Origin: Nymphaea colorata
Taxonomy: Eukaryota; Streptophyta; Magnoliopsida; Nymphaeales; Nymphaeaceae
Reading direction: 5' to 3'
Length of the DNA stretch: 64,000 nucleotides
NCBI RefSeq assembly: GCF_008831285.2
Contig: NC_045138.2
Location: 33,575,934-33,639,933, forward strand
Position numbers and translations under genes: made by a program. The notes beneath the pieces are model-generated. The model made no database searches. It worked only from the letters and a program-made list of their open reading frames with translations, and had not been told where the DNA came from. Positions 2,692 through 22,979 of this stretch are shown piece by piece. Positions within the stretch are counted from its first letter, which is position 1. Every line of letters begins with the position of its first letter.

Positions 2692-5600
2692 ATGGAAACA
2701 TGCAGACAGCCGAGAGGCTTAACGAGGCAGCCATCACCTACAGTTCTCTTTGGCTTTCTGCTGTGCTGCTTCGTGCAAAAGATTTTATGTTCTTATGTGA
2801 ACACGATTTACCCAACTCATGCTCTAACGGTTGACCAGACAATTAGATCTTCTGCTGGAGCATTTGAATTGGGTTACTTCACTCTCGGGAATCCAGCCAG
2901 ATACTACATAGGCGTTTGGTTCAAGGATAAGCCAGGAGACAATGTGGTTTGGGTAGCCAACAGAAAGAGACCTCTACAGGACAACACAGCAGAATTTAAG
3001 ATCTCCGAAGATGGTAACTTGGTTCTTCAAACTCAATCAGGGTCCTCGGTGATATGGTCTACCAACCTAAATCCAAGCCCACGTTCAAGTTCCATGGTTG
3101 CTGTCCTTCTGGACAGTGGTAATCTTGTTCTGAGGGATAACAGTTCGTCTGGCACCATCTTCTGGGACAGTTTCAGCCACCCAACAAACACCTATTTGCC
3201 TGGTCAAATTTTTGGACTGAACAAGGTAACCAAGCAGCGCCAAGTTCTCACTTCATGGAAGAATTTACAGGACCCCTCCCCTGGGCCATTCTCTTTTGAG
3301 ATAGATCCAGATGGAACCGCACAATGTTTTCTGCTGTGGAACAGGACTCATAAGTACTGGAGCACTGGGATTTGGGATGGCCACATTTTCGCTAACTCGC
3401 CGGAGATGCGAGGTTATTCAGCCATAACTTTCAACTATGTCACAAACGACACAGTGAGCTACTTCACTTACGCGTTCTACGGGAGCATGTCAAGGTATAT
3501 AGTGGATCATACTGGGCAGCTCAAGCAATATATATGGGACAAAGATAAATCACAATGGACTCTTCTCTGGCTGAAGCCCACAGAGTATCAGACCTGTGAA
3601 GTCTATGGTCTGTGTGGAGCCTTTGGGGTTTGTGATCAGGTTAGCCTGAATCCCTGCCAATGCGTTGAGGGGTTCAAGCCGGCATCTGCTAAAAACTGGG
3701 AACTGAATGATTGGTCTGATGGATGCACAAGGAAGAACAAATTGCAGTGCGCAGGTGACCAGTTTTCTTTACTGCCGAAGATGAATGCCCCTGGGAAACC
3801 TGATGCTTCAACAACACTCGCGAGTGCAAATGAGTGCAAGTCAGCTTGTCTGAAAGATTGTTCATGTACCGCTTATTCTTATAAGGAAACTAACTGTTCT
3901 ATATGGAGGGGAGACCTTTTCAATCTCCAACAGCTGTCTGAAGGTAGTGGAAACGGCGTTTACGTTCGTCTTGCCGGCGCCTTGCAGATTGCCACGAATG
4001 AGACCACAAAGACGCAGCCTTCTCCTGTGATCACTGAAGCCTCAACTAGAGGTAAATTGGGTTCGCCATCCTTAAAAAAATTCAGGCGTTGTTCCCATAC
4101 AGAAATTTGCCAGACCACACAAAGAAATTTCTCCTAGTTAGAGAAATTATTGGTTGCATTCAAAATCGTTCCTTGAAATTTCTTTATGTTCAATTCATTG
4201 AAGATTAAAACTGTAATATGTTTTATACATCCTTTGTATTTTCTTAACGTTCTTTTTCTGGCTTTTACAATTCTGAATTAAAAACAATTCGATTTCATCC
4301 GGTCAATTTTCTTAATCTTCTAGAAGAATGACTCGGTCGAAAAAATAAAAATTCACAACACTGAGTCGGTCCGGAATGAATTTTGACAGAGTTATAGGGC
4401 AGGGCCATCAATCAGAGAAGACTCCATAACTCCAGTGGAAACTCTTCTTATTTTATCTCAGGTGGGCGAGGACCGAAATCAGCACGATTTCTAGTCTTTG
4501 TAGCAATTCCTCTGGTAGCAGTTGTATGCATTGCTGTAGGAGCATATTGGTCTTGGAGGCGCAATGCCAAACAGAGAGGTAAGCGACTAATCTGACCAAT
4601 TATGATCTGGGGACAGCAAAATTTGTTGTATTTTCGTTTCATCGTTGCCATCTAGATACACGCAGCCTCTCATGATATAGTCTCTCCAGTTCACAAGCTG
4701 GCTGACATGAGAGCGTTCATGTGTCACGCAGCCTTGCTTTCCTTGGCTCTGTGTCGCCTAAGTGCAGTGGCCTGAAAAAAAGAACCGAGGCTTTTAGCTT
4801 CCTTATTCATATCAGGACCTCTTTCTCCTCTTCTTCTCAACTTTGTGAAATGCTTTTGGGCTCCAAATGATGCAGGGGAACCAAATGAAGCAGGTCTTGA
4901 TTCTGCAATTGATCTTGGAGGAGAAGGGGAAGAGAGCAGAGGACCTGACCTACCGTTTTATGAGCTTCGATTTATCGCTGCTGCAACCAACGATTTTTCT
5001 TATTCAAACATGCTTGGAGAGGGAGGTTTTGGTGTTGTCTACAAAGTAAGATCGCCATTTCAGAAATTCCAAATCTGTCTCTGTCTCTGTCTCGGTGTGG
5101 TTCTGGCCAAAACGTTTACTTGCAGTGGTGTTTAACCTTGACCAGCTTTGGAATCCGGTGAATTGATCAGCAGTTATAACTAAATACCTTTGAAGATAGA
5201 TCTGGCAGATATAGACGATAGATTTTCCCTCAATGCGATGTATATATATATATTTTCTGTTTTACGTAGAAAATAGTAATCAATTGTAAACTAACATGGC
5301 GGTTTATACGTCGAAAAAGGGTGACCTCTCAGGGGAGCAAGTAGCTGTGAAGAGATTGTCCAAGGATTCCAAGCAAGGTGTGGAAGAGTTCGTAAACGAA
5401 GTGAAGTTAATCGCAAAGCTTCAGCACAGAAACCTTGTCCAGCTTTTAGGATGCTGCGTTGAGGGAGAAGAGAAGATTTTGGTGTACGAGTACATGCCGA
5501 ACAAAAGCCTCGACGCATTCATCTTCGGCGGTCTGTCACTCTCATTCACTTTGCTGGGATCTGTTCTCGATTAACATGTATACATGCTTCAGTGCAATGT

Positions 5601-22979: not shown

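Follow-up and report, generated by a model that had tools for sequence, protein, structure and literature searches.

Whether the sensing and signalling halves of a receptor kinase gene share one ancestry is the question raised by three neighbouring genes, RLK-A, RLK-B and RLK-C, of the water lily Nymphaea colorata. They lie in a stretch of 64,000 nucleotides (C1:33575934-33639933 of the assembly), which is called the window here. A sequence-only reading of this stretch had proposed that an At2g19130-like ectodomain was joined to an SD1-type kinase in these genes by exon shuffling, and that RLK-D, next to them, has an ordinary SD1 ectodomain. Comparisons within the genome show that the combination is real, well supported in this one genome and wider than had been said.

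Receptor genes in the window and their copies

RLK-A, RLK-B and RLK-D lie on the plus strand and RLK-C on the minus strand. Each consists of one ectodomain exon, a transmembrane exon with a phase-1 intron on either side, and five kinase exons. In all four genes exon 1 finishes NNN G^GT, in phase 1, and the transmembrane exon comes next; a single ectodomain exon, followed by a phase-1 intron and then the transmembrane exon, had already been described for RLK-A, RLK-B and RLK-C. SD1 family genes follow a seven-exon plan, and the ectodomain exon, transmembrane exon and five kinase exons of these three genes agree with it.

Exon 1 of RLK-A (2692..4051) encodes a signal peptide and an At2g19130-like ectodomain with B_lectin and S_locus_glycop domains. 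It is followed by the transmembrane exon (4462..4578) and by kinase exons 3-7 of the SD1 type (4866..6688, 5' limit approximate), which carry the motif GYIAPEY and not GYMSPEY. The frame of exon 6 is broken at a run of six G (6188-6193); either RLK-A is a pseudogene or the G run is a homopolymer assembly error. If spliced as in the other copies, exon 4 of RLK-A is followed by GC and not by GT (5527-5529), and the same was seen in F572k, a close copy of RLK-A in L016. A GC-AG intron is possible at this place in both genes.

RLK-B has an At2g19130-like ectodomain in exon 1 (9034..10411), with a second in-frame Met at 9058, a transmembrane exon (10583..10696) and SD1-type kinase exons 3-7 (11390..13857, 5' limit approximate). 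On the minus strand, exon 1 of RLK-C (21665..22979) encodes an At2g19130-like ectodomain with B_lectin, S_locus_glycop and PAN_2 domains; the transmembrane exon (20442..20558) was spotted by eye, and the SD1-type kinase exons 3-7 occupy 17098..20079 (5' limit approximate). Frames are open in every exon read of RLK-B and RLK-C. The RLK-C kinase is of the RD type and has the usual lysine, HRDLK and DFG. SD1 receptors such as SRK and ARK resemble RLK-A, RLK-B and RLK-C in having an RD kinase with HRDLK, a VEAR-like end and an ectodomain made up of B_lectin, S_locus_glycop and PAN domains. The ectodomain exons, the kinase exons, HRDLK, the YALEGRYS stretch and the VEAR or LEAR ends had all been placed correctly in the sequence-only reading, albeit that the VEAR end which it gave as a hallmark reads LEAR in RLK-B. 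RLK-D provides a contrast within the window: its exon 1 (29501..30797) encodes an ectodomain of the lineage shared by RLK-D, I391k, J and K and is followed by a transmembrane exon (31994..32113) and SD1-type kinase exons 3-7 (33400..35503, 5' limit approximate).

A genome-wide search located the S-locus glycoprotein domain at 40 places, and the catalytic exon of the RLK-C kinase, used as a query, gave at least 150 matches (1260 candidates, 150 scored). Among the best 16 of these kinase matches, seven loci have an At2g19130-like ectodomain in front of an SD1 kinase (RLK-A, RLK-B, RLK-C, E563k, F572k, G400k and H440k; hereafter the chimeras), three have a LysM ectodomain and four an ectodomain of the D lineage (RLK-D, I391k, J and K, with J and K on C11), while two are degenerate copies. 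Twelve of the 16 are ectodomain-typed loci on C1 between 33.39 and 33.61 Mb. The degenerate kinase copies, at C1:33555108 (L038, within the array) and C1:32554995 (L037, approximately 1 Mb away), have the same catalytic-exon peptide. On C5, an isolated B_lectin match (19180729-19181043, minus strand; 103.9 bits) with an open frame of 119 codons has a score near that of the array lectins.

The seven chimeras repeat one order on one strand, from the ectodomain exon through the transmembrane exon (spotted by eye in C and E and located by script in the other five) to the five kinase exons. This argues against an artefact in which the ectodomain and kinase exons belong to separate neighbouring genes or were brought together by misassembly. 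Such an artefact, which the frame breaks in RLK-A and H440k might suggest, is scarcely credible. H440k is frame-broken in its ectodomain and in exon 4; its exon-1 DNA is 81 % identical to that of G400k.

The same chromosome carries, about 0.26-0.29 Mb away, two intronless genes (L009 and L010, within C1:33306500-33325500, at C1:33308764 and 33322626) whose open frames are 811 and 819 codons long and in which an ectodomain like that of RLK-A, RLK-B and RLK-C precedes an HCDIK (SD2) kinase. At2g19130-type genes had been said to be usually intronless, and intronless genes of this donor kind are indeed present in the genome. We take L009 and L010 to be of the At2g19130 kind from their motifs and from one At2g19130 sequence not drawn from a database.

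The two halves have different nearest relatives

Over approximately 380 residues, the ectodomains of RLK-A, RLK-B and RLK-C are 55-61 % identical to those of L009 and L010. For all six chimera ectodomains that could be compared over this length (~380 residues), the range is 52-61 %, a likeness shared with the At2g19130-type SD2 receptors. Identity to RLK-D is 33-36 %, and 33-35 % to SRK8 and SRK9 (PDB 6kyw and 5gyy), the only solved structures found to be related to the RLK-C ectodomain; this sets the ectodomains of RLK-A, RLK-B and RLK-C apart from those of SD1 receptors. The ectodomain tree comprised 20 rows, i.e. 18 of the 40 S-locus glycoprotein places together with SRK8 and SRK9; H440k (broken frame), fragments, genes with a split ectodomain (on C4, C12 and C13) and unfetched places were omitted. 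In this tree RLK-A, RLK-B, RLK-C, E563k, F572k and G400k group with L009 and L010 (support 99/100), while RLK-D, I391k, J and K form a clade of their own (96/95). The ectodomain phylogeny suggested by the sequence-only reading thus gave, within this genome, the expected grouping with the intronless HCDIK genes. The difference in identity over some 380 residues and the well-supported clade together argue that the likeness is not due to chance. Placing the chimera ectodomains with those of D, I391k, J and K was rejected (AU p 0.0002), as was a grouping of the chimeras with D, I, J, K and SRK8/SRK9 to the exclusion of the SD2 pair (AU p 0.006).

The claim that RLK-D has an ordinary SD1 ectodomain fared less evenly. 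Its ectodomain lineage does differ from that of RLK-A, RLK-B and RLK-C, but the SD1 label comes from the kinases: SRK joined D, I, J and K with support of 60/9 in the first ectodomain tree and of 86/93 once an At2g19130 sequence was added, and a clade of the chimeras, the SD2 pair and I, D, J and K without SRK was not rejected (p 0.194). Against SRK8, the RLK-C ectodomain scored 276 bits (426-residue query) and that of RLK-D 202 bits (391-residue query, so that the lengths differ); because RLK-C outscores RLK-D, the RLK-D ectodomain is not plainly of the SRK kind. Judged by its kinases, the D/I/J/K lineage would carry the ordinary SD1 ectodomain. Both the ectodomain and the kinase trees have long branches, those of the outgroups. 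A search across bacterial and archaeal genomes for plant-like relatives of the L009 ectodomain gave 18 pattern matches, none of which was confirmed.

The kinases of RLK-A, RLK-B and RLK-C are 69-73 % identical to that of RLK-D and 38-40 % identical to those of L009 and L010. The At2g19130-type genes L009 and L010 also differ from them in being intronless and in having HCDIK, whereas RLK-A, RLK-B and RLK-C have HRDLK and are interrupted by introns, one following exon 1 and others separating the kinase exons. The kinase tree comprised 31 rows and takes in 11 of the 30 loci cut out via the catalytic-exon search; the other 19 are 11 that repeat genes in the set, two degenerate copies and six further C11 kinases. 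The chimeras, I, D, J, K and the three LysM loci form one clade (96/92), in which the chimeras and the LysM members join I391k (99/96), nested with D, J and K. L009 and L010 fall with the other SD2 kinases, and a grouping of the chimera kinases with those of the intronless genes was rejected (AU p 0.0001). The kinase phylogeny, like that of the ectodomain, therefore came out within this genome as had been expected. The SD1 label of the D, I, J and K kinases is our assumption from motifs and exon plan in a tree free of database SD1 kinases, and the outgroup kinases from C1 at 34 Mb and from C11 are, as we take them, CRK-like. The 54 matches of the RLK-C kinase to solved structures at E up to 1e-40 included no molecule named as an S-domain kinase, which leaves few reference points from outside the genome.

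The separate trees and AU tests thus reject one common history for both halves of the chimeras; the nearest relatives of the two halves differ within this genome. In six chimera pairs, dN/dS was 0.07-0.13 for kinase exons 4 and 5 and 0.19-0.40 for the ectodomain. Values below 1 indicate purifying selection, which is strongest on the kinase.

Junction, direction and age of the exchange

Long DNA matches (66-70 %) between the chimeras and L009 or L010 were found within exon 1 and none in the kinase exons. In the four pairs compared (A, B, C and E), similarity to L009 ends 57-89 bp short of the splice site, and the junction lies near the end of exon 1, just ahead of the phase-1 intron and the separate transmembrane exon. 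The exon shuffling proposed before agrees with the phase-1 end of exon 1 and the separate transmembrane exon, but plain shuffling does not fit on the At2g19130-type donor side because the donor kind has no intron. The loss of similarity inside exon 1 makes recombination or gene conversion within this exon the likelier course. Exon 1 would have been replaced by ectopic recombination or gene conversion, within or beside exon 1.

With a probability of about 0.8, the starting point was an SD1-type gene whose ectodomain belonged to the D/I391k lineage; the ectodomain of an intronless SD2 gene of the At2g19130 kind, linked to it, overwrote its exon 1, and the resulting gene was duplicated afterwards. 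The position of the chimeras with I391k inside the D, J, K kinase clade makes the D/I/J/K ectodomain the likely ancestral one for that clade. A transfer in the opposite direction, in which an SD1 gene like RLK-A, RLK-B or RLK-C supplied the ectodomain of the intronless HCDIK genes, these three being ordinary SD1 genes, is very improbable. It predicts that the chimeras and the SD2 pair stand beside the I391k ectodomain, a grouping that was rejected with moderate strength (p 0.0103), and the separate ectodomain clade of D, I, J and K speaks against it as well. A further point against it is that the combination of this ectodomain with HCDIK also occurs in Arabidopsis. What such a transfer does have in its favour is that the ectodomains of L009 and L010 are nearer to those of D, I, J, K, SRK8 and SRK9 (34-38 % identity) than to those of six other SD2 genes (24-28 %), a pattern that makes some old exchange between SD1 and SD2 likely. 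The kinases of L009 and L010 are 46-56 % identical to those of SD2 and 36-43 % identical to those of SD1. It may be that the At2g19130 kind in general goes back to an older mosaic of SD1 and SD2. The evidence favours an SD1 gene with a replaced ectodomain as the direction of change. The earlier suggestion that a member of the array gained a new ectodomain exon is supported by the nesting of the kinases with I391k and by the rejection of the opposite grouping.

Synonymous distances were calculated with a Nei-Gojobori script. Between the ectodomains of the chimeras and L009, dS is 0.90-1.70 (five pairs); among chimeras it is 1.04-1.39 for the ectodomain and 0.88-1.56 for the kinase (five pairs each), apart from the pair A/F with 0.36 and 0.32, respectively. 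The C-I pair has a value of 2.43; saturation is reached in A-D and C-D. Since the distances to L009 overlap those among the chimeras, the gain appears to be about as old as the chimera radiation, with the reservation that dS values around 1 approach saturation and that gene conversion could make the gain look younger. The published duplication peak of Nymphaea colorata lies at a Ks of ~0.9, a value obtained by other methods and, like those given here, near saturation (PMC7015852).

A dS of ~1 would be compatible with great age, and concerted evolution could mimic the observed pattern of dS and trees. It is nevertheless improbable that the chimera predates the angiosperm crown and is common to many plants. 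In a tree that includes one At2g19130 sequence, not drawn from a database, At2g19130 falls outside a clade made up of the chimeras and the intronless pair (100/99.9), and joining At2g19130 to the pair without the chimeras was rejected (p 4e-5). The overlap of the dS values, next to the much larger ones for the D lineage, also argues against an ancient combination. A capture in the lineage of Nymphaea colorata, or later homogenisation by conversion, is favoured.

There may have been one capture or several: a clade of the chimeric ectodomains without the SD2 pair has support of 36/16, and placing the pair with B and C, with G or inside the chimeras was not rejected (p 0.33-0.42). Repeated replacement or ongoing gene conversion among array members, in place of one capture with subsequent duplication, is somewhat unlikely. 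It would account for the unsettled order of G, B, C, A/F/E and the SD2 pair in the ectodomain tree, and it fits with the exon-1 slot having been refilled at least one further time, by LysM. In one kinase tree, moreover, E563k goes with the LysM members (93/77), while in the ectodomain tree it goes with A and F (95/99). There is, however, no firm clash between the halves: in a smaller kinase set (7 of the 30 loci, without SD2, other outgroups and I0_384k), A, F and E group together in the best tree (56/79), and a grouping of B and C was not rejected (p 0.289). A coarse 40-column identity profile also revealed no obvious converted tract. A single kinase clade of the chimeras without LysM gave p 0.138 with the 31-row tree and 0.482 with the smaller set; the LysM members may have come from a lectin chimera or have originated alongside the chimeras. 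One capture followed by duplication is the reading preferred here.

LysM members and the meaning of the array

The three LysM loci, all on the minus strand, lie at C1:33444816-33450345 (L044 and L059), C1:33455093-33458923 (L034 and L060; 455k) and C1:33464216-33468668 (L039). Upstream of the kinases at 33444816 and 33455093, the ectodomain exon encodes a LysM triplet and is followed by a transmembrane exon. A LysM-domain search with 25 matches revealed that the kinase at 33464216, too, has a LysM exon upstream, at 33468129. Pfam found LysM in the 455k exon, and the closest solved structure to this ectodomain is rice CEBiP (5jcd; 151.8 bits, 2e-43), the best LysM kinase reaching 33.7 bits. The other two LysM exons are 78 % and 64 % identical to that of 455k; the nearest ones elsewhere in the genome, on C9, are 49 % and 47 % identical (among 14 matches). 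In the two loci that were read, the transmembrane and kinase exons continue in compatible phase, 455k having been read short of exon 7, and the third locus is known from its exon places and open LysM frame. The kinases of the LysM loci sit in the clade of A-H and I391k (99/96), in a tree free of LYK/LYR kinases. The three loci are apparently natural fusions of a CEBiP/LYM-type LysM exon with an SD1 kinase in the same array. These members of the kinase clade of RLK-A, RLK-B and RLK-C are new with respect to the sequence-only reading.

The end of the C9 LysM exon that was read (49 %) looks like a phase-1 donor, and therefore a LysM exon could slot ahead of an SD1 transmembrane exon. Such a phase-1 exon could have entered there via recombination in introns. 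When intron similarity between the LysM and lectin chimeras was sought in order to place the breakpoint, the DNA matches between the two kinds fell at the kinase exons and on short stretches next to them. The 445k LysM gene has, in its intron 1, the start of a second, decayed LysM exon (L059, ~1613-1774, minus strand), a trace of a further exon-1 duplication.

Swapping of ectodomain or kinase in receptor kinases is already known from grasses and rosids, and the combinations in this tandem array are a variant of it. CRKs usually consist of an ectodomain exon, a transmembrane exon and five kinase exons (PMC6368629), and those of grasses with an exchanged kinase have been explained by chimeric genes that formed following tandem duplication (Vaattovaara et al. 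2019, PMC6368629). As in the chimeras, ectodomain and kinase differ in ancestry in these CRKs; there the kinase was exchanged and the DUF26 ectodomain kept, whereas here the ectodomain was exchanged and the SD1 kinase kept. LysM-III of rosids joins a LysM triplet to a different kinase (Richards and Rose 2019, PMC6625017). It carries group II LysM triplets, has two exons and is described from rosids only (PMC6625017), whereas the LysM members presented here combine a CEBiP/LYM-type triplet with an SD1-type kinase encoded in several exons. CEBiP itself, the best solved-structure match of the 455k ectodomain, has no kinase (PMC5889549, where At2g19130 is listed among the Arabidopsis G-type receptors), whereas in the LysM loci a transmembrane exon and SD1-type kinase exons come next. 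The lectin-domain architectures set out in PMC5485960 do not include an At2g19130-like ectodomain with an SD1 kinase, and in searches of one open-access library no title or abstract opening among those listed describes this combination, which may be in print elsewhere. Nothing useful on exon plans or swaps came from PMC8590313, PMC10868138 and PMC5007699.

A kinase-domain tree covering five land plants led to the inference that S-domain kinases had undergone two fusions and no fission (Xing et al. 2013, PMC3616866). A tree of that kind is blind to the exchange of ectodomains between two receptors. Ten of the best 16 loci to the RLK-C catalytic exon have an ectodomain from another lineage, and naming by kinase alone or by ectodomain alone would therefore mislead.

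In functional terms, the chimeras would be active membrane receptors that keep the SD1 downstream signalling and read new ligands. The transmembrane-kinase cassette may take up new sensors via its phase-1 intron, and receptors in the plasma membrane would relay the newly sensed signal into SD1-type RD-kinase signalling. A glycan or another small molecule is proposed as the ligand of the lectin kind, and chitin as that of the LysM kind. A more far-reaching proposal is tentative, and the odds lean against it: the array might be a receptor workshop, in which one SD1 transmembrane-kinase cassette with its phase-1 intron has, in addition to its own sensor, received those of two or more foreign families (At2g19130-type lectin and CEBiP-type LysM). 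On this view the LysM members would be natural CEBiP-kinase fusions, each a single polypeptide able to sense chitin with no need of a CERK1-type partner, and the swaps would be confined to water lilies.

Engineered receptor fusions exist, and the LysM members would be their natural counterparts. With one kinase end, two foreign sensors and genes of the donor kind still remaining, the array offers a direct test of plant receptor rewiring, in which evolution has apparently swapped the sensor and kept the signalling end.
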